Assembly: GCA_030038015.1 (NCBI GenBank)
Contig: JASHPR010000608.1
Location: 1 to 36,301 of the forward strand
Direction: 5' to 3'
Source: Streptosporangiaceae bacterium
GTDB lineage: Bacteria; Actinomycetota; Actinomycetes; Streptosporangiales; Streptosporangiaceae
Length of the DNA: 36,301 nt
Positions 11,350-34,757 of the stretch are shown here, one piece after another (the stretch's first letter is position 1; each line of letters begins with the position of its first letter). A program made the position numbers and the translations under genes. Under the pieces are notes generated by a model. That model saw only the letters and a program-made list of their open reading frames with translations, ran no database searches and was not told the DNA's origin.

Positions 11350-13221
11350 GTGGACCGCTACCCTGACATCAGTAATCACGGCCTCATCGGTGACCTGCAT
11401 ACGGCAGCGCTGGTGGCCACGGACGGCACGGTCGATTTCTTCTGCTGCCCGCGGTTCGATTCGCCGAGCGTGTTCTGCTCGCTGCTGGATGCCGACAAGG
11501 GCGGCTATTGCCGCATCTCGCCTGCGACCGATAGTTACGTGTCGAAGCAGCTGTACTTCCCGAACACCGCGATGCTGATCACCCGGTTTATGACCCCGGA
11601 CGGCGTCGGTGAGGTTCTCGACTTCATGCCAGTCATCGAGGGGCCGCCGACCGACCGGCACCGGCTGGTCCGGCATCTGCGGGTGGCTCGCGGCACCATG
11701 AAGTTTGTGGTCGAGATCGAGCCGCGGTTCGACTACGGCCGCGCCAGCCACACCGTCGAAGTAAGCGACGCGGGCGCGGTGTTCCGCACCGCGAGTGGCA
11801 TGGAACTGACGGTGCACACCGCGGTACGGCGGGAGGCGGACGAGGGCCGGGCCAGCATCGAGCGCACCGAGAACGGGCTGCGCGCGACGATTACCATGCG
11901 CGAGGGCCAGAGCGGCCGCGGCGTCGTGCTGGAGTCCATGGGGGGCCAGCCGGAAGTGCTGCAGCCAGCCGAGCTGCAGCGGCTCGCGGACGACACCGCC
12001 GCCTACTGGAAGAACTGGCTGAACCAGTCCACTTACACCGGCCGGTGGCGGGAGATGGTGACCCGGTCGGCGATGACCCTCAAGCTGATGACCTACCAGC
12101 CCACCGGCGCGCCGGTCGCGGCGGCGACGTTCGGGCTGCCCGAGCAGGCCGGCGGCGAGCGGAACTGGGACTACCGGTTCACCTGGATCCGGGACGGGTC
12201 GCTGACCATGCACGCCCTGTCCAACCTGGGATACCTGGAGGAGGCCGCCCGGTTCGGCGCCTGGATGCGGGACCGGGTGACCGAAGGCGCCGCCGCGGAC
12301 GGCGCCAGCCCGCTCAAGATCATGTACCGGGTGGACGGTTCGTCCGACCTGACCGAGGAGATCCTCGACCACTTCGAGGGCTGGCGCGGATCCCGGCCAG
12401 TGCGGATCGGCAACGGCGCGGCCGACCAGCTCCAGCTCGACATCTACGGCGAGGCAGCCGACACGATCCTGGCCGGCGATGACGCTGGGCTGCCGATCGC
12501 CTACGAGGGCTGGCTGGCGCTCACCAAGATCGTCGACTGGGTCGCCGACAACTGGGACCAGCCTGACGAGGGTGTCTGGGAGACCCGCGGCGGCCGCAAG
12601 GACTTCACCTACGGCCGGTTCCAGTGCTGGGTCGCCCTCGACCGGGCGATCAAGCTAGCCCAACGGCACGGCCGCCCGGCGGACACCGCGAAATGGACAG
12701 CCGCCAGGGACCAGCTGTACAAGCAGGTCATGACCCGCGGCTGGAAGGACAAGATCAAGGCGTTCACCCAGCACTATGACACCGATGTGCTGGACTCTTC
12801 GCTGCTGCTCATGCCGCTGGAGGACTTCATCTCGCCCACCGACCCGCGGTGGCTGTCCACCCTGGACGCCATGAACAAGGAGCTGGTTTCCGACAGCCTG
12901 GTCTACCGCTACAACCCGGCCGCCTCGCCCGACGGCCTGCACGGCGACGAGGGGACGTTCTCCCTCTGCACCTTCCTGTACGTCGATGCCCTCGCCAGGG
13001 CAGGACGGCTCGACGACGCCGTGCTCATCTTCGAGAAGATGTTCACCTACGGAAACCACCTCGGCCTGTACTCCGAGGAGATCGGGTCCACCGGCGAGCA
13101 GCTTGGCAACTTCCCGCAGGCCTTCACCCACCTGTCGCTGATCAACTCGGCCATCACCCTCAACCGTGAGCTCGACCGGCGCGCACGCCTGCGCGAGCCG
13201 GCAGCGGCGGTAGCGCGCTAG
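11350..13221 (+). CDS. Glycoside hydrolase family 15 protein (glucoamylase/trehalase-like)
   Basis: This 623-residue cytoplasmic protein has the bacterial GH15 layout. An N-terminal beta-sandwich (YPDISNHGLIGDLHTAALV, GTVDFFCCPRFDSPSVFCSL) is followed by an (alpha/alpha)6 barrel with NWDYRFTWIRDGSLTMHAL, GVWETRGGRKDFTYGRFQCW and GLYSEEIGSTGEQLGNFPQA. The likely acid and base glutamates are Glu411 (VWETRGG) and Glu576 or Glu577 (LYSEEI), by position in the family. Relatives hydrolyse alpha-glucosidic bonds in starch-like oligosaccharides or trehalose, and the exact substrate is not predictable. There is no signal peptide. GTG 11350 is supported by GAGGGG about six bases upstream. The phased repeats at 11249-11304 may regulate it. 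Confidence 0.93.
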   Translation: MDRYPDISNHGLIGDLHTAALVATDGTVDFFCCPRFDSPSVFCSLLDADKGGYCRISPATDSYVSKQLYFPNTAMLITRFMTPDGVGEVLDFMPVIEGPPTDRHRLVRHLRVARGTMKFVVEIEPRFDYGRASHTVEVSDAGAVFRTASGMELTVHTAVRREADEGRASIERTENGLRATITMREGQSGRGVVLESMGGQPEVLQPAELQRLADDTAAYWKNWLNQSTYTGRWREMVTRSAMTLKLMTYQPTGAPVAAATFGLPEQAGGERNWDYRFTWIRDGSLTMHALSNLGYLEEAARFGAWMRDRVTEGAAADGASPLKIMYRVDGSSDLTEEILDHFEGWRGSRPVRIGNGAADQLQLDIYGEAADTILAGDDAGLPIAYEGWLALTKIVDWVADNWDQPDEGVWETRGGRKDFTYGRFQCWVALDRAIKLAQRHGRPADTAKWTAARDQLYKQVMTRGWKDKIKAFTQHYDTDVLDSSLLLMPLEDFISPTDPRWLSTLDAMNKELVSDSLVYRYNPAASPDGLHGDEGTFSLCTFLYVDALARAGRLDDAVLIFEKMFTYGNHLGLYSEEIGSTGEQLGNFPQAFTHLSLINSAITLNRELDRRARLREPAAAVAR

Positions 13222-13385: not shown

Positions 13386-14270
13386 CTAGGCGGCAGGCAG
13401 GGCGTGAGCGACGTGATGGATAAGAGCCCCGGCTGCCGGGCTGTGGCTCCGCCCGGGTGACCAGACGAGGTCGAGACGGGACCGGACCTCGGGGCTGAGG
13501 CCGATCGCACGCAGCGTCTCCGCGGAGGCGTCGGCGACCGAGGACGGAAGGATGGCGACGCCCAGTCCCTCAGCGGCCAGCTGAGCGACCATGGAAAGGG
13601 CGCTCGCCTCGAAAACGACGTTCGGGCGGACGCCCTGGCGTGCGCAGGCAGCATCGAACGCCGAGCGGACACCGGTGCCGCCGGGGAGGCTGATGACCGG
13701 CACCCCGTCCAGTGCCGCCATGCCGATGGTGCGGCGGGGAGCCAGCGGGTGGGAGAGCGGGACCGCGGCCACAAGGGCCTCGTCCACCACGGGGAAGGAC
13801 GCGACGTCGCCCGCGCGCTCTCCGGTCACTCCTGCCAGCGCCAGGTCCAGGCCGCCCGTGCGGACGCCTTCCATGAGCCGCTCGGAGGTGTCCTCGCTGA
13901 GGCCAATCCGGATACCCGGGTAACGAGCGTGGAAGCCAGCGAGCAATCGGGCCAGGACCGGCAGCGAACAGCCGCTCACCATCCCGATGGCCACGCTGCC
14001 CCGGACCAGGCCCGTGAGCTGATCGACCGCGAGACGGGCGCCTCTTGCGGCGTCAAGCGCTGCCCGGGCGTACGGCAGGACGGCAGCACCCACAGCGGTC
14101 AGGCGCACGCTCCGCCCGGAGCGGTCGAACAGCGGCTGGCCGAGCTCCCGCTCCAGCTGGCGCACCTGGGCGCTGATCCCCGGCTGCGTCACGTTGACCC
14201 GCGCCGCCGCCCGGGTGAAGTTCGCCTCCTCGGCGACGGCCACGACGTACTCAAGCTGACGCAGCTCCAT
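13386..14270 (-). CDS. LysR-type transcriptional regulator
   Basis: This 294-residue protein has a winged helix-turn-helix at residues 1-60 (MELRQLEYVVAVAEEANFTR, then AAARVNVTQPGISAQVRQLE). A LysR substrate-binding domain covers about 88-290, with SVAIGMVSGCSLPVLARLLA and LAAEGLGVAILPSSVA. It would bind a small effector and act on its own promoter and the divergent gene. It is transcribed away from the NTF2-like gene across a 101-bp AT-rich spacer, the classic LysR arrangement. The start follows the family N-terminus exactly. The effector is unknown. Confidence 0.94.
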   Translation of the reverse strand: MELRQLEYVVAVAEEANFTRAAARVNVTQPGISAQVRQLERELGQPLFDRSGRSVRLTAVGAAVLPYARAALDAARGARLAVDQLTGLVRGSVAIGMVSGCSLPVLARLLAGFHARYPGIRIGLSEDTSERLMEGVRTGGLDLALAGVTGERAGDVASFPVVDEALVAAVPLSHPLAPRRTIGMAALDGVPVISLPGGTGVRSAFDAACARQGVRPNVVFEASALSMVAQLAAEGLGVAILPSSVADASAETLRAIGLSPEVRSRLDLVWSPGRSHSPAAGALIHHVAHALPAA

Positions 14271-14371
14271 AACTGTTAATCATAGATCGGAACATTATCA
14301 ATTGTTAGACTTCTGACGATGGAGCGTCCAGACTGGCGGCAGCGGACCTCTCACCACCATGGAGAACTGAA
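14271..14371. promoter_or_regulatory. Divergent promoter/operator region between the LysR and NTF2-like genes
   Basis: The 101-bp spacer has a sharply AT-rich core (14271-14310). It contains an ATA-N11-TAT dyad at 14282-14298 and the palindrome CAATTG at 14299-14304, next to two related AA(C/T)TGTTA motifs. LysR proteins bind AT-rich interrupted dyads in such spacers, so this is the probable operator. GGAG before the ATG at 14372 gives the NTF2-like gene a ribosome-binding site. Confidence 0.5.
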
Positions 14372-14758
14372 ATGCCGGATCGCCAGAAGGCGGCCACCCC
14401 CGAAGACCTGACCCGGCTGTTTGTCGAGCGCTCGAACGCCAAAGACGCAGACGGGGTGGCCAGCCTCTATGAGGAAGACGCCGTCATCGCCTACCCGCCA
14501 GGGGGCATGACCGCCGGGCGTGACGCGATACGCCAGCTCTGGTCGCAGGTGCTCGCCAGCGCACCGCGCTTCGAGCCGGAGGAGCCCCTGCCTACCTTGC
14601 TGCTCGGCGACATCGCCCTTACGGCGACGATCGCCAAGGATGGGGCGGGCGCACGCGCCCAGGTTGCCCGCCGCCAGGCCGACGGATCGTGGCTTCGTGT
14701 CCTCGACCGGCCAGAGTTCCTTCCCGTCGAGATCCCGGCTGCGCGGCCTTCGACGTAG
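14372..14758 (+). CDS. NTF2-like / SnoaL-like domain protein
   Basis: This 128-residue single-domain protein has the NTF2-like cone fold pattern. An N-terminal helix (PEDLTRLFVERSNAKDADGV) is followed by SLYEEDAVIAYPPGGMTAGR, the helix DAIRQLWSQVL, and antiparallel strands ending GSWLRVLDRPEF. This matches the DUF4440/SnoaL-type group that includes small polyketide cyclases, steroid isomerase-like proteins and many binding-only members. No catalytic residue set was confirmed, so the reaction is unknown. Its divergent LysR neighbour probably controls it. GGAG eight bases upstream supports the start. Confidence 0.8.
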   Translation: MPDRQKAATPEDLTRLFVERSNAKDADGVASLYEEDAVIAYPPGGMTAGRDAIRQLWSQVLASAPRFEPEEPLPTLLLGDIALTATIAKDGAGARAQVARRQADGSWLRVLDRPEFLPVEIPAARPST

Positions 14759-14992
14759 CCGGTGCCCGGATCGCCGGCTGCCGGCGACGGGGAAGCCGCA
14801 CGCCGGCCGCGGCCGCTTCGGCCGTGCCGCCCCGCTTCCGGCAGCCGGCCGTGACAGATGTCACCTTCGGCTCATGACATCGCGGCGTCGCGCCCGCGCC
14901 CCCCGCCGGCGAGACTGGGTTGCAGGCAAACGGACTGCCCCGGCCTGCAGCGGTTCCGGCGCCCCGGCAGGCAGGAGAACGGCAGGTGGCTG

Positions 14993-15421
14993 ATGAACAC
15001 GGCGCAGGACAGCCAGCAGGCCCCGCAGATGAGGGCCTCCGACACCGACCGTGACGAGGTCGTGGCGGCGCTGAGCGAGCACTTCCAGGCGGGCCGGCTG
15101 ACATCGGACGAGCTAGACGAGCGGACCGGGCGCGCCCTGGCCGCGCGGACGCTGGGCGAGCTCGGCGAGCTGATGGCCGATCTTCCCGCCCTGGCGCGTG
15201 CCGTGCAGGGTCCCCCGCCGGCCCGGCCTCGCGGGCCCGGGCACCCGGGGCCGGCGCTGATCGTCCCGCTGCTGGCGGCCGTGGCCGTGGTCGCGCTGGT
15301 GGCCAGCGCCGGCCCCGGCCATCACAGCTGGGCGGCCTGGTGGATCGTGCCCGTCGCGCTGCTGGTGGCGCGGCGGCTGGCGGGCGGGCGCGGCGCCCCG
15401 CGCGGCCCGTGGCGGAACTGA
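14993..15421 (+). CDS. DUF1707 (SHOCT-like) domain membrane protein
   Basis: This 142-residue protein has the DUF1707 domain at residues 13-65: MRASDTDRDEVVAALSEHFQ, then AGRLTSDELDERTGRALAAR and TLGELGELMADLP. A proline-rich linker and two membrane helices follow (ALIVPLLAAVAVVALVASA and AAWWIVPVALLVARRLAGG), with a basic C-terminus. DUF1707 is a common actinobacterial module, usually N-terminal to membrane segments. Its biochemical role is not established. ATG 14993 was chosen because the family domain starts close after it and AGGTGG lies just upstream. In-frame extension to 14858 adds unstructured Arg/Pro residues. Confidence 0.83.
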   Translation: MNTAQDSQQAPQMRASDTDRDEVVAALSEHFQAGRLTSDELDERTGRALAARTLGELGELMADLPALARAVQGPPPARPRGPGHPGPALIVPLLAAVAVVALVASAGPGHHSWAAWWIVPVALLVARRLAGGRGAPRGPWRN

Positions 15422-15633
15422 CCGCGGTGGGTCCATCCTGGTGCGCAGGCACGTGCCAGCGCGGGAGCGGCCACGAACAGAGTGGTCACCGGCTACGACG
15501 AGAATGGCAGCCCGGCGGTCATCCGGCAGGGGGAGCCGCCGGTCGTCGCCCGCGCCGGGAGGCAGGCGGGACCGTCACCGCCGGGACATCGCGTGCGCGA
15601 TGCCGATGAGCCGCCCGGCCCCGGGGACAGGGT

Positions 15634-16689
15634 GTGACCGGCGGTCCCCGGCTGAACTGGGGCCTGGCGGCAGCGTTCGACCCGGAGCGCGCTGGGGGCG
15701 TGCCGCCGGATCTCGCGCGGGTGTTCCAGGTCGCCGGGGAGTCGCTCAATCTGGTGGCCCGGCCGGTGGAGCGCTTCGAGCTCGCGGGCACCCTGAACGG
15801 TCATCAAGGCCACGTGCGATCCGACCGGGCGAAGCAGAACTTTCCCGCCATCTTCGCCCTGGCCGCCGCCGGCCGCTGGGCACGCGAGCCGCTGCGCTCC
15901 CACAGCCGCGCCGCCGCCGCCTCGGCCCTGATCTCGTGGGCCGAGGCCTACCGGCCGGCCGGGAACCCGGTCGACGAGTGGTTCTTCGTCCCGCTGCTGC
16001 AGGCGGTCGACCTGGTGGCGGGCTCGCTCCCGGCGGGAGCGCAGTCCACGCTGCTGAACTGGGCAAAAGAGTTCGCGGCCAGCGGGGACCGTTTCTTTGA
16101 ACGGGTAGCCGGCAACAGCCCGAGCAGGGCCAGCAACTGGACCGCCCGCCGCCTGCTGATCCGCACCGTGGCGTGCACGGTGGCCGGGGAAGGGGCGGCA
16201 CGGGCGGCGGTGCCGGGGCTGCTGCGGGGCTTCGTGGCGCGGAACTACCCGGCCGGCCCGTCCGGCGAGCCGGACGGCCGGACCTTCGACTTCGTGCAGC
16301 GCGACGCCCTGCACTACCACGCCGCCGCCGTGCAGCCGCTCGTCGAGGTGGCGCTGTACGCGCCGGACCTGGTCGGCCGGGACGTCCGGGCGGCGGTGCT
16401 GGCCGGGCTGGAGTTCCTCCGGCCGTTCTTCCTCGGCCAGAAGGAGCATGTCGAGTTCGCCCGCACCTCGGTGGCGTTCGACCGGGAGCGGCGCGACGAC
16501 GGCAACCCCGTGTTCCGGAACGCGCCCTGGGATCCCGCCCGTTCCCGGGTGCTGCTCCGCCTGGCCCGGGCGGCGTTCCCGGAGATCCGCGGCTGGACCG
16601 AGCAGGTCGTCGACGCCCGGTACGATCCCCGGGTCAAGCTGCTGGCGGCCATCTACGGCGAGCCGCAGCGCCGGGCCGGCTGGCCCTAG
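15634..16689 (+). CDS. Alginate-lyase-like (PL5-type) alpha/alpha-barrel protein
   Basis: This 351-residue protein starts at GTG 15634 with GGGGAC upstream. The strongest signature is RDALHYHAAAVQPLVEVALY (from about residue 223, with His227 and His229). It matches the conserved RxxALHYHxxALxPLVxxA motif of PF05426/PL5 alginate lyases. An SNWTARR segment (Asn168, Trp169) sits where the family has its substrate-cleft Asn and aromatic residues. PL5 enzymes cleave polymannuronate by beta-elimination in the periplasm or outside the cell, but no signal peptide is seen here. The enzyme may act on intracellular oligosaccharides, or secretion may be non-classical. The true substrate is unknown. It is convergent with the substrate-binding protein gene, 24 bp away. 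Confidence 0.68.
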   Translation: MTGGPRLNWGLAAAFDPERAGGVPPDLARVFQVAGESLNLVARPVERFELAGTLNGHQGHVRSDRAKQNFPAIFALAAAGRWAREPLRSHSRAAAASALISWAEAYRPAGNPVDEWFFVPLLQAVDLVAGSLPAGAQSTLLNWAKEFAASGDRFFERVAGNSPSRASNWTARRLLIRTVACTVAGEGAARAAVPGLLRGFVARNYPAGPSGEPDGRTFDFVQRDALHYHAAAVQPLVEVALYAPDLVGRDVRAAVLAGLEFLRPFFLGQKEHVEFARTSVAFDRERRDDGNPVFRNAPWDPARSRVLLRLARAAFPEIRGWTEQVVDARYDPRVKLLAAIYGEPQRRAGWP

Positions 16690-16713
16690 CGCCGCGCCCC
16701 GGCCCCGCCCAGC

Positions 16714-17685
16714 TCAGGCGCCGGGGGCGATCATCTGCTGGACCGGGTACGCCTTTCGGAGCAGCCCGAACTCCACCATCAGGTCGGAGATCCGCTGGAT
16801 CAGCACGGGGTCGGTGTCCAGCGGAAAGTCCGGTTGCGCCATGACCGCCGCTGCCGTGGCCGACACCCCGGAATAGGCCACCATGGCCTTCTCGACCGCG
16901 GCGGGGTCGGTGTCCGCGATCCGCTGCGCCTCGACCAGCGCCTTGCGGAAAGCCGCGGCGGTCTTCGGGTACTTCTGCAGCCAGGTCTTGGTGACGACGT
17001 ACCCGGCGATCGGGAGGTTCTGGGCGGCACCAATATCAAGGTCGGCGAGCGGCTCGGCGCCAACCGTCTCCTCCGCGCCCGTGATGAACGGCTCAGGCAG
17101 CCATGCGGCGTCCACCTGGTGCTTCTTCAGCGCGCCAGCCATCGCAGGGAACGGGATGGGAACGAGATGCACGTCACCAGGCGAGACCCCGTAGGCCCTG
17201 AGCGCCGCGTCGACCAGCACCGTGCCGATGTTGTTCAGCACGTTGACGCCGATCCGCTTCCCCCGCAGGCCGGCGATGCTCGTGATCGACGAGCCGGCCG
17301 GGATCAGTACTTCCTGGCAGCGCGGCTCCATGATGGATCCCGCGGCCAGTACCTCCAGGTCGGCGTGCTGCTGGGCGTTCGCGAGGATATAGGAGACATA
17401 GTTGCCGTCCGTGATGTCAAACTTGCCGGCCAGCTGTTCCTGGATGACCTCCGCGCTGCTGATGGCCGGAACGATCGTCACGTGCAGCCCCTCGGCAGCG
17501 AACAGCCCGCGCTGCTGCGCGATATACAAGCCGGCCGAGTCGTCCGCCGGGACGGCCGCGATCGTCAGGTTGTGCAGCTCAACGCCGGATGATGACGCCG
17601 AGGAGCCGTCCGCACCCGCGCAGCCCGCAGCGAGCAGGGCAGTCACCGCCAATGCCGCGGGAACGCGGAAAAGCCGACGTCTCAT
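16714..17685 (-). CDS. ABC transporter substrate-binding lipoprotein (NMT1/SsuA-like)
   Basis: This 323-residue protein has a lipoprotein signal peptide: an RRR n-region, a hydrophobic core and the lipobox LAAGC with Cys22. It is followed by a type 2 periplasmic-binding fold of the NMT1/THI5-SsuA group. Recognisable parts are LTIAAVPADDSAGLYIAQQR, FAAEGLHVTIVP, the LRGKRIGVNVLNNIGTVLVD block and VDAAWLPEPFI. Family members bind sulfonates, taurine, nitrate or thiamin precursors for ABC import. The ATG at 17685 has GGGGAGA seven bases upstream and fits the signal peptide. A longer frame to 17739 adds 18 unneeded residues. No permease or ATPase gene is adjacent, so it is an orphan binding protein. 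Confidence 0.87.
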   Translation of the reverse strand: MRRRLFRVPAALAVTALLAAGCAGADGSSASSSGVELHNLTIAAVPADDSAGLYIAQQRGLFAAEGLHVTIVPAISSAEVIQEQLAGKFDITDGNYVSYILANAQQHADLEVLAAGSIMEPRCQEVLIPAGSSITSIAGLRGKRIGVNVLNNIGTVLVDAALRAYGVSPGDVHLVPIPFPAMAGALKKHQVDAAWLPEPFITGAEETVGAEPLADLDIGAAQNLPIAGYVVTKTWLQKYPKTAAAFRKALVEAQRIADTDPAAVEKAMVAYSGVSATAAAVMAQPDFPLDTDPVLIQRISDLMVEFGLLRKAYPVQQMIAPGA

Positions 17686-17947
17686 GATATGTTCTCCCCT
17701 GGAGCTTTCACCGTCGTGCGTCGCTGACCACCCTGCCACGAGCCGGCCTGCCAGGAGCCAGAATCGCCCATCTTGCCCGGCTCTGGCCTCCCATGGCTCC
17801 GGCCATGCTATGCGTCCGGCCGGCCCGGAGGCCAGACGAGTCCCGGCAGCAGCCGGCCGGGAGCACCACCGCGGCAGGCGGCAATCGCGTGCACATGCTC
17901 GGGTTCTTCCGGGCGGGACCGCGGCGGCTCATCTAGACTCGGCAGGT

Positions 17948-24081: not shown

Positions 24082-24652
24082 ACGCCCGCAGGCCTGCCCT
24101 TTCCCAGACCCGGCCTTCGCATCCGCGCATCATCCGGCCCTTGGCATCCCGCCCGCGCCCGGTCCCGAGCCGCGCACCGGCCCAGCGGCCGATGCTCACC
24201 TGCAGATCCGGCCCGGCGCCAGGGGTATCACAGGCACATCACTGGTGAGCTTTAGGCTCCCCGAACATGAGGGACGGAAGCCCGAAAATCCGGTCATACA
24301 GGGAAACCGCTCAGGTCCGCTGGTGCCTGGGTGCCGCGGCAGGACAGCCCGCATCCGCCGGGCGCGCTTCGCCTGGCCGGTACGCCGGAAGTGCCGGCGC
24401 GACACGCGGTCGGGAGGCCGCCGCTGACGGCCCGGCGGGGTTGCAGGCTGATCCCGGCCAGCCCGCGGCTGACCGGATGCGGACAGAGCGCCGCGCTGCC
24501 GCCGATGAGACCGCGTGGGTCCACGCATTGGACGCCGTCGAGCTGTGCCAGCGAGTCGCCGAGCTGGCAGCCCGCAGATAGCCGGTGGCGAGAGGGCGCT
24601 GTGGGGACCTTCGGCCCTGTTGGCATGGCGCGGCGGCGCGCAGTCTGGACGG
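24082..24652. other. Intergenic region before the GMC oxidoreductase
   Basis: About 570 bp. A plus-strand frame at 24267-24581 (104 residues, ending ETAWVHALDAVELCQRVAEL) has a helical C-terminus but no recognised family, and overlapping minus-strand frames are equally open. No gene is called. No hairpin or tRNA was seen. The oxidoreductase promoter probably lies in the right half. Confidence 0.4.
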
Positions 24653-26425
24653 ATGCCAGGTAATGCGGAAGGGCGGGGAGCGCCCACGTCTGCTGGCCAG
24701 CATGACTACGACGTGCTTGTGATCGGCTCGGGTTTCGGCGGCTCGGTCGCCGCGCTGCGGCTCACCGAGAAGGGCTACCGGGTCGGTGTGCTTGAGGCGG
24801 GGCGCCGGTTCGAGGACGCCGATCTCCCGAGGACGTCCTGGGACGCCCGCAGATTCCTCTGGGCGCCGAAGCTCGGGTGCAAGGGCATCCAGCGGATTCA
24901 CCTGCTGCGGAACGTGATCATCCTGGCCGGCGCGGGCGTCGGCGGCGGGTCGCTCGTGTACGCCAACACGCTCTATGAGCCAAGCGACGCCTTCTACCAA
25001 GACCGCCAGTGGGCGCACATCACCGACTGGCGGGCTGAGCTCGCACCCTACTACGACCAGGCGAAACGGATGCTGGGCGTGGTGCCCAACCCGACGATGA
25101 CCCCGTCGGATGAGGTCATGAAGCAGGTCGCCGACCAGATGGGGATCGGGCGCACGTTCGGCATGGCCCCGGTCGGGGTGTTCTTCGGCCGGGACGGCCG
25201 CAAGGAGCCAGGCGTGGAGGTCAGCGACCCGTTCTTCGGCGGCGCGGGCCCAAGCCGCCGCGGCTGCCTGGAGTGCGGGGAGTGCATGACCGGCTGCAGG
25301 CACAACGCGAAGAACGCGCTCGTGAAGAACTACCTGTACCTGGCCGAACGGGCCGGCGCGACAGTGCATCCGGAAACGACGGCGGTCACGGCACGGCCGC
25401 TGGGGACCGGAGGGTACGCGGTGGACACGGTGCGGACCGGTGCGTGGCGGGCCAGCCGGGCCACGCGCACCTTCACCGCCGAGCACGTGGTGTTCGCCGC
25501 CGGAACGTGGGGAACGCAGCAGCTCCTGCACCGGATGAAGGCCCAGGGCTGGCTGCCGGGGATCTCCGCCCGGCTCGGCGTCCTGACCCGCACGAACTCG
25601 GAGGCGCTCGGCGGGGCGCTGACCACGATACGCAACAGGAAAAACTACGACTTCACCCGCGGGGTGGCCATCACCTCATCCATCCACCCGGACGAGGACA
25701 CCCACATCGAACCCGTCCGTTACGGCAAGGGCTCGAACGCGATGGGGCTGCTGAGCACGCTGATGACCGACGGCGGCGGGCGGCTGCCGCGCAGCGTGAA
25801 GTGGCTTGCCCAGGCGGCACGCCATCCGGGGCGGCTCACATCGCTTTACGCGGGCATCAATCACTGGTCCGAGCGGGCCGTGATCGGGCTCACCATGCAG
25901 CCGCTGGACAACTCGATCACGATCCGGCCCAGGCGCACCCGGCTCGGCCGGATCAGGCTGACCTCGGAGCAGGGGCACGGCGCCCCGACGCCGGCCTGGA
26001 TACCTGTCGCCAACGAGACAATGCGCCGGATCGCATCCGGGATCGGCGGGTTTCCCCTGGGCAGCATCGGCGAGATAGTCAACATCCCGATGAGCGCCCA
26101 TTTCATCGGGGGCTGTGCCATCGGCGACGGCCCGGACAGCGGCGTGGTCGACGCCTACCACCGCATGTACGGCCATCCCGGGCTGCACGTGGTCGACGGC
26201 TCCTCGATCCCCGCGAATCTCGGTGTCAACCCGGCGCTGACGATCACAGCCCAGGCCGAACGCGCGATGGCCCTGTGGCCCAACAAGGGCGAGGCCGACC
26301 CCCGCCCCGCCCTTGGCGCCGCCTACCGGCGCCTGGCCCCCATCGAGCCACGGACTCCGGCCGTGCCGCCGTCCGCGCCCGCGGCGCTGCGGCTGCGCGT
26401 CACCAGAACCGCCAGACCCGGGTGA
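24653..26425 (+). CDS. GMC-type FAD oxidoreductase, ChoD-like
   Basis: This 590-residue flavoprotein has the FAD-binding motif VLVIGSGFGGSVAALRL (Gly25-Ser-Gly-Phe-Gly-Gly30), the AGAGVGGGSLVYANTLYEPS segment and the C-terminal GMC block HVVDGSSIPANLGVNPALTI. A cysteine cluster, GCLECGECMTGCRHNAKN, followed by VKNYLYLAERAG, is the hallmark of the mycobacterial ChoD (Rv3409c)-type cholesterol oxidase subgroup. The reaction would be oxidation of an alcohol, possibly a sterol-like or other hydrophobic one, with FAD. The substrate is not proven for the subgroup. ATG 24653 gives the expected short N-terminus, but its ribosome-binding site is weak. The SSADH gene follows after 40 bp and is probably co-transcribed. 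Confidence 0.9.
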   Translation: MPGNAEGRGAPTSAGQHDYDVLVIGSGFGGSVAALRLTEKGYRVGVLEAGRRFEDADLPRTSWDARRFLWAPKLGCKGIQRIHLLRNVIILAGAGVGGGSLVYANTLYEPSDAFYQDRQWAHITDWRAELAPYYDQAKRMLGVVPNPTMTPSDEVMKQVADQMGIGRTFGMAPVGVFFGRDGRKEPGVEVSDPFFGGAGPSRRGCLECGECMTGCRHNAKNALVKNYLYLAERAGATVHPETTAVTARPLGTGGYAVDTVRTGAWRASRATRTFTAEHVVFAAGTWGTQQLLHRMKAQGWLPGISARLGVLTRTNSEALGGALTTIRNRKNYDFTRGVAITSSIHPDEDTHIEPVRYGKGSNAMGLLSTLMTDGGGRLPRSVKWLAQAARHPGRLTSLYAGINHWSERAVIGLTMQPLDNSITIRPRRTRLGRIRLTSEQGHGAPTPAWIPVANETMRRIASGIGGFPLGSIGEIVNIPMSAHFIGGCAIGDGPDSGVVDAYHRMYGHPGLHVVDGSSIPANLGVNPALTITAQAERAMALWPNKGEADPRPALGAAYRRLAPIEPRTPAVPPSAPAALRLRVTRTARPG

Positions 26426-26465
26426 CAGTGCCTTCGCCCGGTCCTGCCCGCGAGGAGTGCCAGCC

Positions 26466-28058
26466 ATGACGACATCGGTGGATTCTCCGGCCGGACCCGG
26501 GCTGCTCGGCCCGCGGATCACCGGCGCCCTGCTCAGCCGGCTGGCGGCGCGCGCCGTCACGGCGGGACCCAGGGAATCGGTCCCGGTCGAGATGCCAGCA
26601 ACCGGCAAGATACTCGGGCACGTCCCGCACGGCACCCCTGACGATGTCGCGGCGGCCGCTGACACAGCACGCAGCGTGCAGCCCGGCTGGGCGCGGATGC
26701 ACGCCGGCGACCGTTCGAAGGTGCTGCTGCGCTTCGCCGAGCGCGTGCTCGGCGCGCAGGATGAGGCACTCGACCTGATCCAGCTGGAGAACGGCAAGGC
26801 CCGCCAGCATGCCTTCGAAGAGATCCTCGACGTCGCGCAGGTGAGCCGCTACTACGCCCGCACGGCCGAGCGCTACCTGCACCCGCACCGCCGTGCGGGC
26901 GCCCTTCCCGCGCTGACACAGACCTGGGAGTGTCACCACCCGAAGGGCGTGGTCGGGGTGATCTCCCCGTGGAACTACCCCCTGACGCTGGGCATCAGTG
27001 ATGCCCTTCCGGCACTGGTCGCCGGTAATGCGGTCATCAGCAAGCCGGACCGGCAGACGCCGTACACGGCGCTGTGGGCCGCGGAACTGCTCGAGCAGGC
27101 CGGCCTGCCCCCGGGTGTCCTGCAGGTGGTGACCGGCTCAGGACCGGAGCTCGGGACGCCGCTGATCGAGCACTGCGACTTCTTGATGTTCACCGGCAGC
27201 ACCCGGACCGGGCGGATTGTCGCTGCCCAGGCGGCCGCGCGGCTCACGGATTACTCGATGGAACTCGGCGGGAAGAACGCGATCCTCATCCTCGCCGACG
27301 CCGACCTCGCCAGGGCTGTCCCCGGGGCCGTGCGGGCGGCGTTCTCCAGCAGCGGTCAGCTGTGCATCTCCATGGAGCGGATGTACGTCGACGCCGCGGT
27401 GTGGGACGAGTTCGTCCCGCGCTTCGCCAAGGCCACAACGTCGCTTCGGCTAGGCCACTCACTCGCCTACAAGGCGGACATCGGCTCGCTGATTTCGGCG
27501 GAGCAGCTCGACACCGTCGTCCGCCACGTCAACGACGCGGTCAGCAAGGGCGCGACGGTGCTGGCGGGCGGCAAGGCGCGGCCGGACATCGGCCCCTACT
27601 TCTACGAGCCCACCGTGCTGACGGACACCTCCCCTGACATGGCCGTCTATGCGGACGAGACGTTCGGGCCGGTCATCTCCCTGTACCGCGTCAGCGGAGC
27701 GGATGAGGCCATCGAGCGGGCCAACGACAGCTGTTACGGCCTGAACTTCTCGGTCTGGACCCGCGACGTCCGCGAGGGCCGCCGGGTCGCCGCCCGGCTG
27801 GAGGCCGGATCCGTCAACGTCAACGAGGGCTACGCGGCCTCCTGGGGGTCCGTCGACGCGCCCATGGGCGGCTGGAAGGACTCGGGCGTCGGCAGCAGGC
27901 ACGGCGAGCACGGGATCCTCAAGTACACCAACGCCCAGACCATCTCGGTCCAGCGGCTCATGCCGATCGCCCCGCCGGGTGCGATGCCGCCGGCCATGTA
28001 CGCCAGGGCAATGACCGCCGCGATGCGGGCCCTGCAGCGGCTGCCCGGCCGCAAGTAG
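26466..28058 (+). CDS. gabD2: Succinate-semialdehyde dehydrogenase (GabD2-type)
   Basis: This 530-residue NAD(P)+-dependent aldehyde dehydrogenase has PWN (Asn170), the general base Glu266 in MELGGKN, the nucleophile Cys300 in SSSGQLCIS, and ETFGPVISLYRV near the coenzyme site. The N-terminal extension and overall sequence (TLGISDALPALVAGNAVISK, MGGWKDSGVGSRHGEHGIL) fit the actinobacterial GabD2 group. These oxidise succinate semialdehyde to succinate in GABA and related catabolism, though members also accept other aldehydes. GAGGAG eight bases upstream supports ATG 26466. It lies 40 bp downstream of the GMC oxidoreductase, which could in principle supply an aldehyde substrate. Confidence 0.9.
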   Translation: MTTSVDSPAGPGLLGPRITGALLSRLAARAVTAGPRESVPVEMPATGKILGHVPHGTPDDVAAAADTARSVQPGWARMHAGDRSKVLLRFAERVLGAQDEALDLIQLENGKARQHAFEEILDVAQVSRYYARTAERYLHPHRRAGALPALTQTWECHHPKGVVGVISPWNYPLTLGISDALPALVAGNAVISKPDRQTPYTALWAAELLEQAGLPPGVLQVVTGSGPELGTPLIEHCDFLMFTGSTRTGRIVAAQAAARLTDYSMELGGKNAILILADADLARAVPGAVRAAFSSSGQLCISMERMYVDAAVWDEFVPRFAKATTSLRLGHSLAYKADIGSLISAEQLDTVVRHVNDAVSKGATVLAGGKARPDIGPYFYEPTVLTDTSPDMAVYADETFGPVISLYRVSGADEAIERANDSCYGLNFSVWTRDVREGRRVAARLEAGSVNVNEGYAASWGSVDAPMGGWKDSGVGSRHGEHGILKYTNAQTISVQRLMPIAPPGAMPPAMYARAMTAAMRALQRLPGRK

Positions 28059-29982: not shown

Positions 29983-32331
29983 TTATTGAGCCGGGTCCGC
30001 CGCGGCAATGAGTTCCAGGATGCGAGCCGGAGGCAGGTGCTGCTCGTAGATCCGCACGCCGAAGGGCGAGAGCGCGTCCTCGATTGCGTTCACTACCGTG
30101 GGCGGCGCGACGATCATGCCGCCCTCGCCTACGCCGCGGAAGTTGACGTCCGCGTCGAGCGGCACGGTCTCGAGGTGCTCTATCTCGATGCGGGGGACAT
30201 CGCAGGCGGTCGGCAGCAGGTAGTCCATGAACGTGGCCGACTGGCAGTTGCCATCCTCGTCATACGCCGATCGTTCGAGCAGCACCGCGCCGATGCCCTG
30301 CGCGACCCCGCCCCGGATCTGGCCCTCGACGATGGCGGGGTTGATCAGCGCGCCGCAGTCCTCGGCGACGACATACCGCTCCACCGTCACGATGCCCGTC
30401 TCCGCGTCGACTTCGACGATGGCGCAGTGACTGCCGCCCGACCATCCTCCTTCGCCGCCGTCGAACACGGCCTCGACTTCGAGATTCGCGTCCACGCCGT
30501 CGCCGAACTGGCCCGATGCCGCACGCCGCGCGACCTCGCCCACGGGGATGGCACTCGCCGGGTCGCCGCGCACCCAGACCCGGCCATCGGTGATCTGGAG
30601 GTCCTGCGCGCTGGCTTCCATGAGATGCGACGCGAAGTCGAGCACCTTGGCCCTGAGCTGCCGGGCGCCGTGCAGGGCCACGCCCCCGGTCATGGTGGCC
30701 GACCGGCTTCCGCCGGTCAGCCCGAACGGGACGACGTCGGTGTCGCCGACCACAACGCGGACCTGCCCGAACGGCACGCCGAACTCGTCGGCGGCGATCT
30801 GGGCCAGGGTCGTCTGGTGGCTCTGGCCGTGCGGCATCTGGCCGGTGAACAGCGCGACGATGCCGTCTTCCTCGAGCCGGAGGCGCATGGACTCAGTGCC
30901 CATCGGGCCGCTGGGCCCGCCCGGCTCGCGCGGGCCGGGGGCGGCCTCGATGAACGTCGCGACGCCGATGCCGAGGTAACGGCCCCGGCCCCGTGCTTCG
31001 GCCTGCCGGCGCCGGAACGCGGGGAAGTCCACGAGCTGGGCGATCCGCTCCAGCGACTCCCGCGTTGTGACTCCGGCCAGCGGCCGCCCGGTGATCATGA
31101 CGGCCGGCGGGTCGGTGCGCGGGGCGACGTTGCGCAGCCGGATCTCGACCGGATCGAGGCCGAGATCCTTCGCGATGAGGTCAAGGATGCGTTCCCGCAC
31201 GAACGTCTCGGACGCCCACGGGCCGCGGTAGGCGACGTACGACGCCTTGTTTGTGATGGCCGCGGTCGACTCGAAACCCAGGGCCGCGAGCTTGTACGGG
31301 CCCGGCAGCATCGCCTCGACGATTCCCGGGACCATCGTGCCCATGCCCGGGTACGCGCCGGTGTCGATGACCATCTTCACGTCCAGCCCGAGCAGGTCGC
31401 CCTCGTTGCTGACCGCAGCCCGGACGTCGAAGCTTTCCTCGCGTGCCTGGCCTGACGTGGTGAGGTTCTCGCCGCGGTCCTCGACCCACTTGACCGCCCG
31501 GCTGAGAGCACGCGAAGCAGCGGCAACGGCGAGCTCTTCCCGTGACGCCCCGATCTTCAGGCCGAACGAGCCGCCGATATCGCCGGCCAGGACCCGCACC
31601 TTGCCCTGCTCCATGCCCAGGCGCATGGCGACGGCGATCTTGCTGACGTGAACGCTCTGCGTTGCCGCGTATACCGTCATGACACCAAGGTCGGCGTCAT
31701 AGCTCGCGACGCAGCCGCGTCCCTCCATGGGCACGTTCTGGTGCCGGTGCACGCTGATGCGGAAGTCGGCAACCCGGTCGGCATCGGCGAAGGTGGCCGG
31801 GACGTCACCGAATTCGCTGCGCGAGTGCGGGCGGGCGATGTTGTCACCCAGGTTGGCGAACAGCGGCGGGCTGCCCGGGTCGAGGGCGAAGGACGCGTTC
31901 GTGACTGGAGGCAGTTCGTCGTACTCCACCTCCACAAGCTCGCAGCCGTCCTCGGCGAGGTAGCGGCTCTCGGCGATGACGACCGCCACGGGGTCGCCCG
32001 CGAAGCGCACCTTGTCCGTCGCGAGCAGGGTGAACTCCGGGGTGGGCCCTCCGCCGCCCATCAGGGCCATGAGCGCATCGGGCCCTGGGACCGTCATCGC
32101 TTCCAGTTCCGCCCCGGTGAGCGCCGCCACGACTCCCGGCAGCGCCCGCGCAGCCGAGACATCCACCGAGAGCACACGGGCGTGGGCCAGCGGCGAGCGC
32201 ACGAACGCGGCGTGCAGCATCCCCGGCAGCTTGATGTCGTCGACGTAGCGGCCCGCGCCGGTGAGGATGCGCGGGTCCTCCGAGCGCTTGATGCTGGCGC
32301 CGGTGTAGCGCTCAGCCGCAATTGCTGCCAT
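29983..32331 (-). CDS. Molybdenum hydroxylase large subunit (CoxL/XDH family, AYRGPW type)
   Basis: This 782-residue molybdopterin-cytosine-dinucleotide subunit belongs to the xanthine dehydrogenase/CO dehydrogenase large-subunit family. It has RRSEDPRILTGAGRYVDDIK-type N-terminal residues, GDIGGSFGLKIG, the FEAAPGP-like IEAAPGPREPGG loop, GQMPHGQSHQTTLAQIAADE and the C-terminal GVGEGGMIVAPPTVVNAIED with the conserved active-site glutamate. The active-site loop is AYRGPW at residues 367-372. Form I CO dehydrogenases have AYRCSFR with the Cu-binding cysteine, and form II proteins have AYRGAGR, so this is neither. It probably hydroxylates a different, unknown substrate. GAGGGAG upstream supports the start. 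It is the third gene of the operon, 14 bp after the 2Fe-2S subunit. Confidence 0.92.
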   Translation of the reverse strand: MAAIAAERYTGASIKRSEDPRILTGAGRYVDDIKLPGMLHAAFVRSPLAHARVLSVDVSAARALPGVVAALTGAELEAMTVPGPDALMALMGGGGPTPEFTLLATDKVRFAGDPVAVVIAESRYLAEDGCELVEVEYDELPPVTNASFALDPGSPPLFANLGDNIARPHSRSEFGDVPATFADADRVADFRISVHRHQNVPMEGRGCVASYDADLGVMTVYAATQSVHVSKIAVAMRLGMEQGKVRVLAGDIGGSFGLKIGASREELAVAAASRALSRAVKWVEDRGENLTTSGQAREESFDVRAAVSNEGDLLGLDVKMVIDTGAYPGMGTMVPGIVEAMLPGPYKLAALGFESTAAITNKASYVAYRGPWASETFVRERILDLIAKDLGLDPVEIRLRNVAPRTDPPAVMITGRPLAGVTTRESLERIAQLVDFPAFRRRQAEARGRGRYLGIGVATFIEAAPGPREPGGPSGPMGTESMRLRLEEDGIVALFTGQMPHGQSHQTTLAQIAADEFGVPFGQVRVVVGDTDVVPFGLTGGSRSATMTGGVALHGARQLRAKVLDFASHLMEASAQDLQITDGRVWVRGDPASAIPVGEVARRAASGQFGDGVDANLEVEAVFDGGEGGWSGGSHCAIVEVDAETGIVTVERYVVAEDCGALINPAIVEGQIRGGVAQGIGAVLLERSAYDEDGNCQSATFMDYLLPTACDVPRIEIEHLETVPLDADVNFRGVGEGGMIVAPPTVVNAIEDALSPFGVRIYEQHLPPARILELIAAADPAQ

Positions 32332-32345
32332 GGTCGCTCCCTCGC

Positions 32346-32816
32346 TCAGCGTTCACGGTTGCGCTTGGCGGCCAGCAGGACGCCATCGATGATGCTCTGG
32401 TAGCCGGTGCACCGGCAGATGTTGCCGGACAGCGCTTCGCGGATCTGCTGCTCGTCGGCGTCGGGGTGGCCGCGGAGGAACGCGGCGGCCTGCATGACCA
32501 TCCCGGGGGTGCAGAAACCGCACTGGAAGCTGTGCGCATCCCACATCGCCTGCTGCAGTGTGCCCAGCCCGCCGTCAGGTGCCAGCCCTTCGATCGTCGT
32601 TACCTCGCTGCCGGCGGCCTGGACCGCCAGCATCAGGCACGAGCGCACCGCGCGGCCGTCCACGATGACCGTGCACGCCCCGCAGACCCCGTGCTCGCAG
32701 CCGAGATGGGTGCCGGTGAGGTTGAGGTCATCCCGCAGGAAGTCCGCCAGCGTCTTGCGCGCCTCCGGCGAGCCCGTGCACGTCGCGCCGTTGACCCTCA
32801 GGGTGATGTCCACCAT
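32346..32816 (-). CDS. Molybdenum hydroxylase 2Fe-2S subunit (CoxS-like)
   Basis: This 156-residue electron-transfer subunit has both clusters of the family. The plant-ferredoxin-type cluster is in HLGCEHGVCGACTVIVDG with a distal RSCLML cysteine. The second cluster uses CGFCTPGMVM and GNICRCTGY. It passes electrons from the molybdenum site to FAD. The start follows the stop of the FAD subunit by 3 bp, and GAGAGG upstream gives the ribosome-binding site. Its length and the SGNICRCTGYQSIIDGV end are standard. Confidence 0.95.
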   Translation of the reverse strand: MVDITLRVNGATCTGSPEARKTLADFLRDDLNLTGTHLGCEHGVCGACTVIVDGRAVRSCLMLAVQAAGSEVTTIEGLAPDGGLGTLQQAMWDAHSFQCGFCTPGMVMQAAAFLRGHPDADEQQIREALSGNICRCTGYQSIIDGVLLAAKRNRER

Positions 32817-32819
32817 CAG

Positions 32820-33692
32820 TCACTGCCTCTCGTAGGCGTTGTCCGCAGCCGCCCGCAGGCCGCGGCGCACCAGGGCGGCCGCGACCTTCTTCCGGTAATC
32901 CGACGACCCGTGCAGGTCGGCTGGCGGGTCGATATCGTCGGTCGCACGGCGGGCTGCCTCATCGAACAGCTCGGCCGACGGCCTCTCGCCAACCAGGAGG
33001 TCCTCCGCGCCGGCTGCCCGGGCCGGCACATCAGAAATGCCGGCGAACGCCAGCCGGGCATCGCTGATCAGGTCCCCGGAAAGCGTCAGTGATGCCGCCA
33101 GGCCAACAATGGCGAAGTCGCCGTGGCGGCGGGCGACCTCCTGGAAGCTGGTCCCCGTGCCCCGCCCTGCGGCCGGGAAGCGCACCTCTGTGAGGAGCTC
33201 GTCGGGACGGCGTGACGTCGTGAGGTAACCCTCGAACCACTCCGCCGCCGGGACAATCCGTTCGCCCAAGGGGCCACGCACCACGAACTCGGCATCGAGC
33301 GCCCGGGCGACGGCCGGCAGCTCGGCTGCCGGATCGGCGTGCGCCAGGCTGCCTCCTACGGTGCCGCGGCTGCGGATTGCCTCATGACCGATCAGTGGCA
33401 GAGCAGCCGCCAGCAGCGGCACGGCATCGGCGACGGTCTGGGACTCCTCGGCAACGTACTCCCGCGTCATGGCGCCTATCGCCACCCACCCGTCTGCCGC
33501 CGACACCCCGGACAGTTCGTCTATGCCGTTGATGTCGATGAGCACCGCCGGGTGGGCCAGCCGCAGCGCCAGCAGCGGGATCAGACTCTGGCCGCCGGCG
33601 AGCACGCTCGCCTCGTCCAGATGCTCAGCCAGCAAGTCCACAGCTTCGGAAACGGTTTCAGGGGCCTCGTAGTCAACGTGAGGCAGTTTCAT
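32820..33692 (-). CDS. Molybdenum hydroxylase FAD subunit (CoxM-like)
   Basis: This 290-residue flavoprotein has AGGQSLIPLLALRLAHPAVL near residue 40 and SRGTVGGSLAHADPAAELPA near 110, the two FAD-binding motifs of the CoxM/XDH-B family. A C-terminal CO_deh_flav_C domain follows (GISDVPARAAGAEDLLVGER). It is the first gene of an M-S-L operon with gaps of 3 and 14 bp. ATG 33692 (MKLPHVDYEAPETV) matches the usual family start. ATG 33728 would add 12 residues. No MoxR-like, CoxD/E/F/G maturation or regulator genes lie within the window. Confidence 0.93.
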   Translation of the reverse strand: MKLPHVDYEAPETVSEAVDLLAEHLDEASVLAGGQSLIPLLALRLAHPAVLIDINGIDELSGVSAADGWVAIGAMTREYVAEESQTVADAVPLLAAALPLIGHEAIRSRGTVGGSLAHADPAAELPAVARALDAEFVVRGPLGERIVPAAEWFEGYLTTSRRPDELLTEVRFPAAGRGTGTSFQEVARRHGDFAIVGLAASLTLSGDLISDARLAFAGISDVPARAAGAEDLLVGERPSAELFDEAARRATDDIDPPADLHGSSDYRKKVAAALVRRGLRAAADNAYERQ

Positions 33693-33907
33693 CGGCGCGC
33701 CCTTCGATCCGGCCGGGAGTGCTTCCATAGCGTTCCAGGCTCACTCAGATTGCCCCGACAACCATGCCGACGGCAACCACGGTCACTGCACCCGGCTGTC
33801 TATCTATGCCACGGCTGACCACAAGCGCCGCCGTAGCCGCTGCCCGGTGAGGGTCTTCGGGGCCGGCTGGACCAGCTGACCGGCATCGTCCGGCCCGCGA
33901 TTGACAG

Positions 33908-34373: not shown

Positions 34374-34757
34374 ATGAGCAGCGGGTCACCGGGCCAGCCG
34401 GAAAGGGAACTGAACATCCGCGCGCCCTACCTGGAGCTGATCGCGAACGGCACCAAGACCGTCGAAGTGCGGGTCGGCTATCCGCGGATGCGGTCCATCC
34501 AGGCCGGGCAGGAACTGACGTTCGTCTCCGGTGACCGGCGCGTCCCCACCCGGGTGCGCAGGGTCACCGAGTACCCGTCGTTCGAGGCCATGCTCGACCG
34601 CGAAGACCCGCGGTCGATCGGCGGCGACCTCGGCGAGAACCGCGGTGAGCTGCTGGCGGTGATCAGGAGCATCTACCCGCCGGAAAAGGAGCGGCTCGGC
34701 GTGCTCGCGATCGAGATCGAGAGGCAACCCGGCGGGGGCGCAGGATCCGCTAAGTGA
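34374..34757 (+). CDS. ASCH domain protein
   Basis: This 127-residue protein has the ASCH (PUA-like) fold pattern LNIRAPYLELIANGTKTVEV, then RVGYPRMRSIQAGQELTFVS, with later strands TRVRRVTEYPSFEAML and LGVLAIEIE. The family shows the G-x-K-x-x-E/V-x-R core (NGTKTVEVRV) and is related to RNA-binding and deaminase-like proteins, some of which act on modified nucleosides. The specific role is unknown. The gene seems intact although flanked by two broken genes. GGAGGG-like bases lie just upstream of the ATG. Confidence 0.85.
   Translation: MSSGSPGQPERELNIRAPYLELIANGTKTVEVRVGYPRMRSIQAGQELTFVSGDRRVPTRVRRVTEYPSFEAMLDREDPRSIGGDLGENRGELLAVIRSIYPPEKERLGVLAIEIERQPGGGAGSAK

Follow-up and report, generated by a model that had tools for sequence, protein, structure and literature searches.

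The window analyzed here, a stretch of 36,301 nucleotides from a soil actinobacterium of the Streptosporangiaceae (assembly GCA_030038015.1, contig JASHPR010000608.1, positions 1 to 36,301 of the forward strand), carries on its minus strand a tight three-gene operon, M-S-L, at positions 29983-33692. It belongs to a well-known family of enzymes, of which it is an orphan variant marked by an unusual pocket, and the active-site loop of its large subunit (L) reads AYRGPW at residues 367-372. An earlier note on this DNA had given the same coordinates and the same motif, and both were correct. We consider it likely that the operon encodes a soluble, copper-free, three-subunit molybdenum (Mo) hydroxylase of the xanthine oxidase family that acts on an organic substrate.

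The M gene (32820..33692, minus strand) encodes a subunit of 290 amino acids that binds flavin adenine dinucleotide (FAD), with matches to FAD_binding_5 (150.4 bits) and CO_deh_flav_C (90.5 bits); an alternative in-frame ATG at 33728, 36 bases further upstream, is also a possible start. After 3 bases follows the S gene (32346..32816, minus strand) for a subunit of 156 amino acids with two [2Fe-2S] clusters (Fer2_2, 106.7 bits; Fer2, 32.6 bits), and after another 14 bases the L gene (29983..32331, minus strand) for a molybdenum cofactor-binding subunit of 782 amino acids (MoCoBD_2, 263.5 bits; MoCoBD_1, 214.1 bits; Ald_Xan_dh_C, 104.3 bits). Across the three subunits every Pfam domain scored above its cut-off, except for one minor ferredoxin model. 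The cofactor motifs were intact: the eight S cysteines fitting two [2Fe-2S] clusters (40, 45, 48, 60 and 99, 102, 134, 136, with an extra Cys13), AGGQS at 32 and TVGG at 111 in M, and Gln225 and Glu736 in L. With Mo-binding, two-[2Fe-2S] and FAD subunits and the cofactor residues present, the operon belongs to the xanthine oxidase family.

An AlphaFold2 model of L (mean predicted local distance difference test score, pLDDT, 85.0; predicted template modelling score, pTM, 0.87) matched large subunits of this family over its whole length in a structural comparison, with Z scores up to 45.8. The structural modelling that had been proposed for a comparison of the pocket confirmed the xanthine-oxidase-family fold but did not separate subfamilies, as Z ranged from 37.7 to 45.8 across CO dehydrogenase, xanthine oxidase, quinoline 2-oxidoreductase (Qor) and 6-hydroxypseudooxynicotine dehydrogenase (Kdh).

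The codons of the loop A367-Y-R-G-P-W372 lie at 31216..31233 (minus strand), and the loop aligned with 381-AYRAPG-386 of Kdh, 369-AYRGVG-374 of Qor and 385-AYRCSF-390 of CO dehydrogenase. PMC8305194 places the Kdh loop about 4 Å from Mo, gives the corresponding loops of Qor, xanthine dehydrogenase and CO dehydrogenase, and describes P385, F269 and W551 of Kdh as surrounding the substrate, E748 as the base, and the mutants W551A and E748A as inactive. In the alignment P371 of the window protein is equivalent to Kdh P385, W372 to Kdh G386 and CO dehydrogenase F390, and Glu736 (codon 30124..30126, minus strand) to the catalytic Glu748 of Kdh and Glu763 of CO dehydrogenase; R369, G370 and F256 are further aligned pocket residues. 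Where Kdh has Trp551, Qor Tyr545 and CO dehydrogenase Tyr568, the window protein has Gly540 (codon 30712..30714, minus strand). Gln225 (codon 31657..31659, minus strand) takes the place of the Mo-side Gln, presumably the Gln beside the apical ligand of Mo.

These exchanges were not confined to the window. In one alignment of 142 large subunits, Tyr, Phe or Trp at position 540 was found in none of the 79 motif-bearing proteins versus 51 of the 63 others, while Glu was present at 736 in 78 of the 79 motif-bearing proteins and Gln at 225 in 78 of these and in 61 of the others. Since the aligned rows are related, some of them nearly identical, the association between position 540 and the loop represents one or a few events and not a statistical correlation. 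As far as the aligned sequences tell, the pocket is rebuilt across the whole lineage, with Pro371-Trp372 in the loop and the aromatic residue of the facing wall lost (Gly540). We infer that Trp372 may replace the lost aromatic wall, which would thus have moved across the pocket; a residue is lacking a short way behind the loop, which leaves the precise register of W372 in doubt.

The distribution of the motif was surveyed in 396 Actinomycetota genomes with a DNA pattern coding AYRGPWxxE, which matched 14 places, spread over 13 of these genomes. Thirteen of these places were large subunits of the window L family, among them the window itself and locus L014 of genome G031. Eleven of the 12 further places lay in family large subunits that were 38.5-52.2% identical to window L, and the twelfth, reading AYSGPW in genome G540, was no family large subunit. 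The motif is beyond chance because 13 of the 14 places fell in family large subunits and the backwards-read pattern had no match in the same 396 genomes. A search of 395 genomes from a second phylum, to which Proteobacteria bacterium Centralia_MAG_33 belongs, gave a single match, which lay in a frame of 63 residues that bears no relation to L. At the level of sequence, the AYRGPW loop marks a lineage.

Orthologues with at least 82% identity were found in 16 of the 341 genomes of the window's family, its own genome and fragments being counted. Of 569 candidates in a genome scan for relatives the best 80 were taken, which gave 79 loci, and within this set all relatives of at least 55% identity that covered the loop carried [AS]YR[GA]PW. 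Among the sources of these relatives were Streptosporangiaceae (82% in Trebonia kvetii, whose strain 15TR583 is a soil isolate), Acidimicrobiaceae, Leekyejoonella antrihumi, Blastococcus sp. and a Dormiibacterota metagenome-assembled genome (MAG). A second motif-bearing group consisted of Acidimicrobiales/Ilumatobacter proteins with the loop [AP]YRGPW, and a third, more distant one was found in actinomycetes; the loops of L073 and L075 read AYRGPW, and the remaining rows of the scan had AYRGAG(R/K), AYxCSFR or other loops. The gene order was M-S-L in 27 of 34 loci and in a further two, L064 and L079, in which nothing but an early open frame obscures it, and L-M-S in the Blastococcus locus. In the other four loci M or S was missing, or both were, and in three of these four L lies close to or at the end of the available sequence.

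L087, L089, L091, L119 and others of the Acidimicrobiales group have an insert of about 60 residues in L directly before the GG[SAG]FG segment. On a plasmid of Streptomyces sp. NBC_01707 (L133:13559-17337), S and L of an AYRGPW relative are apparently fused in one 2.9-kb gene, in surroundings that look like a biosynthetic cluster (asparagine synthase-related, condensation-domain, tRNA-ligase-related, adenylation and P450 genes). The nearest relatives without the motif, L153:9623-12007 and L154:9610-11994, have the loop TLRAPM and adjoin a 3-hydroxyisobutyrate-dehydrogenase-like gene as well as an ABC transporter (annotated in L154).

Two trees of large subunits place the lineage. In a FastTree tree of 131 rows, gathered by similarity to the window and with the loop columns included, a branch with a support of 99 set the motif-bearing rows apart; outward from them came L153/L154, then QorL, NdhC of the pAO1 nicotine dehydrogenase (Ndh) and a T. 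roseum protein, and the form I CO dehydrogenase and AYRGAGR rows lay on the opposite side. A mixture-model tree was built from 70 rows without the loop columns; in it, the 38 motif-bearing rows again shared one side of a branch, whose support was between 78 and 92 according to the treatment of L153/L154. The approximately unbiased (AU) test rejected one clade with form I CoxL (p-AU 0.00012). One clade with QorL and NdhC was not rejected (p-AU 0.471); the two adjoined the lineage in the FastTree tree, and the root branch of the mixture-model tree was weak (support 49). The AYRGPW proteins stood apart from the form I and AYRGAGR rows. Placement inside a characterized clade, which the earlier note had named as refuting its reading, did not occur, and none of the placed references (QorL, pAO1 NdhC, KdhC and CoxL of 1n5w and 8uem) fell inside their lineage; the glyceraldehyde dehydrogenase of 4zoh and the caffeine, picolinate, furoyl-CoA and 3-succinoylpyridine enzymes lay outside this sampling.

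Identity as a carbon monoxide (CO) dehydrogenase was rejected on loop motif, family scores and tree. Passages of PMC13203968, PMC13240472 and also PMC6794299 characterize form I by the motif AYXCSFR and the order MSL, and form II by AYRGAGR, the order SLM and an unclear function. The earlier note gave AYRCSFR for form I, but the consensus, as stated in PMC13203968, is AYXCSFR and not solely AYRCSFR. The window operon has the coxMSL gene order; it lacks the AYXCSFR motif, stands outside the form I clade and scored 514.9 bits with the CO dehydrogenase model TIGR02416 (cut-off 991.15) and 562.9 bits with NF040766 (cut-off 950). The form II motif AYRGAGR and the order S-L-M were likewise absent. 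Because no Cys ligand for copper is available, L would not be a Cu-Mo CO oxidizer. The earlier judgments that the enzyme is not a CO dehydrogenase by sequence and that its substrate is probably something other than CO are thus supported, while the expectation that automatic annotation might name it a CO dehydrogenase is not, as the NCBI models would not call it at their cut-offs. The same genome also encodes two separate form I-type large subunits, L002 (AYSCSFR) and L006 (AYRCSFR), which group with CoxL of 1n5w and 8uem.

Maturation genes gave a more complex picture. By tblastn none was found in the window, although upstream of M the search could cover only the 2.6 kb up to the contig end, and none was nearby in 31 of 33 related loci. 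The earlier remark that the operon lacks adjacent maturation genes is therefore accurate, but it is weak evidence, because two orthologous loci carry a complete cox-type accessory set. In L066:133-6656 and L079:152-6646, from Acidimicrobiaceae MAGs with an L about 62% identical, this set is divergent from an AYRGPW M-S-L operon and comprises an AAA ATPase (CoxD), VWA_CoxE, two XdhC-type genes, CoxG, MoeA and MoaC. Of 31 other loci with lower similarity, five are likewise flanked by CoxD/CoxE, and each of these five has an AYRGAG(R/K) loop, so the presence of CoxD/CoxE neither proves nor excludes CO oxidation. Among 37 loci that represent the remoter motif-bearing groups and their neighbours, 15 had CoxG and 7 had XdhC homologues. 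For Oligotropha carboxidovorans, PMC4240915 attributes sulfuration to CoxD and the supply of copper to CoxE/CoxF. The occurrence of CoxD/CoxE beside an L without copper ligand suggests that their function is broader, or that the set acts on a different enzyme encoded beyond the sequence available for these loci. In the host genome, XdhC and CoxE are each encoded twice, every copy on other contigs, and CoxD/CoxE-like genes lie on contigs C168 and C489, which are those of L006 and L002, respectively; maturation is probably provided in trans by CoxD/CoxE/XdhC-type proteins encoded elsewhere in the genome.

Under the proposed reading as a copper-free hydroxylase, a Mo-OH group activated by Glu736 would attack an electron-poor carbon of the organic substrate, which could be an N-heteroaromatic ring, an aldehyde or similar, and the inserted oxygen would derive from water. 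Two electrons would then pass from Mo through the two [2Fe-2S] clusters of S to FAD in M and on to a further acceptor, and the cofactor would be matured by proteins from the other contigs. We tentatively entertain a further-reaching possibility, that the AYRGPW proteins form a distinct subfamily whose Mo pocket has its aromatic wall relocated from the usual Tyr/Trp position to the loop, with a substrate or regiochemistry not known for any Mo hydroxylase and, in part of the lineage, with CoxD/CoxE-dependent maturation without copper.

Four observations weigh against the proposed reading. No neighbouring gene names a substrate, and besides M-S-L no family recurs beyond a few of the 34 loci. The cox accessory set with its copper suppliers in two orthologous loci sits oddly with a copper-free site. 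The residue of the shortened loop that would face the substrate is taken from the alignment. Finally, a single clade of all motif-bearing proteins is supported but not starred once the loop columns are removed.

A narrower version of the same reading, possible though hardly to be presumed, is a diverged N-heterocycle hydroxylase of the quinoline 2-oxidoreductase or nicotine dehydrogenase kind. QorL was the second-best PDB match (498.3 bits) and had the highest identity among the structural alignment rows (39%), and in the FastTree tree it stood with NdhC and the T. roseum protein directly outside the lineage; a joint clade was not rejected (p-AU 0.471). However, Qor and Ndh lay across the weak root branch in the mixture-model tree, their loops (AYRGVG and AFRGVG) differ, Tyr545 of Qor is replaced by Gly, and no ring-degradation genes recurred beside the operon in the 34 loci compared. 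An aldehyde dehydrogenase, for example of the glyceraldehyde type, is a less likely identity, although glyceraldehyde dehydrogenase gave the best NCBIfam models for all three subunits (NF041018-020); the scores of 565.2, 207.6 and 267.3 bits were all below the curated cut-offs (790, 290 and 350), and 4zoh was not among the tree rows. A succinic semialdehyde dehydrogenase gene (26313-28058, plus strand, above its NCBI cut-off) lies 1.9 kb from L, but it is convergent and not conserved.

Fairly improbable in our estimation is a hydroxylase for lipophilic, steroid- or terpenoid-like compounds, an idea to which the neighbours of several sister-group loci (Mce uptake, cytochrome P450, short-chain dehydrogenase/reductase (SDR), acyl-CoA dehydrogenase, MMPL and GMC oxidoreductase genes) and, in the window, a cholesterol-oxidase-like GMC oxidoreductase gene 3.6 kb from L (24515-26425, plus strand; 563.2 bits, below the NCBI cut-off of 850) would lend themselves. 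Yet lipid-type neighbours were not conserved in the window's own group, further annotated sister-group loci had XdhC, permease, Hsp70, cell-wall and other genes instead of Mce, and these genomes commonly carry P450 and SDR genes. An oxidizer of CO or another trace gas that works without the loop cysteine is very hard to credit: the M-S-L order is that of form I cox, and L066 and L079 have the accessory set divergent from the operon, but there is no copper ligand, the lineage is apart from form I, CoxD/CoxE flank AYRGAG(R/K) loci too, and the host already has two form I large subunits.

As a guide to the substrate, the neighbourhood was ruled out, as no family other than M-S-L was shared by more than a few of the 34 loci. 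Loci that shared neighbours were close relatives (e.g., L064/L065/L084 and L076/L077/L083/L090), and the annotated shared genes were housekeeping-like. In the third motif-bearing group, L142, L141, L151, L140, L148 and other loci with AYRGPWQ lie beside Mce4-like uptake, P450, SDR, MMPL and acyl-CoA dehydrogenase genes; a general Mce/P450 link of the sister loci was rejected, since it was absent from further annotated loci of that group. Elsewhere in the window are genes for an ASCH-domain protein (34374-34757, plus strand), a LysR regulator and, separated from it by two unassigned genes, an NMT1/THI5-like substrate-binding protein (13386-17739, minus strand), a trehalase-like glycoside hydrolase 15 (11350-13221, plus strand) and a cellulose-binding-domain protein (5286-6956, plus strand).

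The AYRGPW branch is apparently unstudied. AYRGPW is not printed in the open-licence PMC texts searched and YRGPW appears there solely in an unrelated context, which is no proof of an unpublished subfamily; CO dehydrogenase-like large subunits 'with alternative motifs' are on record in a passage of PMC4735515. Counts of coxL-like genes serve as a proxy for CO oxidation in metagenome surveys, and a one-line motif such as AYRGPW can help to exclude look-alikes, a lineage of which is found in Streptosporangiaceae, Acidimicrobiaceae and other soil actinobacteria. Additionally, the exchange of pocket residues offers a mutational test of substrate choice in Mo hydroxylases, and CoxD/CoxE beside L genes without copper ligand call into question that CoxE acts only in copper insertion.

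Amongst characterized systems, QorMSL (1t3q) and NdhABC of pAO1 are likewise three-subunit Mo hydroxylases with the same fold and cofactor residues, and a sister relation to them is compatible with the AU test (p-AU 0.471); they differ in the loop (AYRGVG and AFRGVG versus AYRGPW) and in Tyr545 of Qor versus Gly540, at a best identity of about 39%. KdhLMS (7dqx) shares the loop proline (AYRAPG), the catalytic Glu and the Phe of GGSFG, but has the essential Trp551 where the window has Gly540 and lacks the loop Trp, at about 30% identity and on a long branch in the trees. Form I CoxMSL (1n5w, 8uem) shares the M-S-L order, the fold and the cofactor residues, and 8uem was the best phmmer match (513 bits); the window protein differs by the missing copper-binding Cys, by Gly in place of Tyr568, by its separate clade and by scores below the CO dehydrogenase cut-offs. 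In the form II CoxSLM type (AYRGAGR) the loop Cys is absent too, and passages of PMC13240472 and PMC13203968 treat CO oxidation by form II as unproven; it differs by a loop one residue longer, by the S-L-M order and by its position on the other side of the tree. The Sulfolobus-type glyceraldehyde dehydrogenase (4zoh), which lies outside the tree sampling, provides the best NCBIfam model, with all scores below cut-off, and is 33% identical in the structural alignment.

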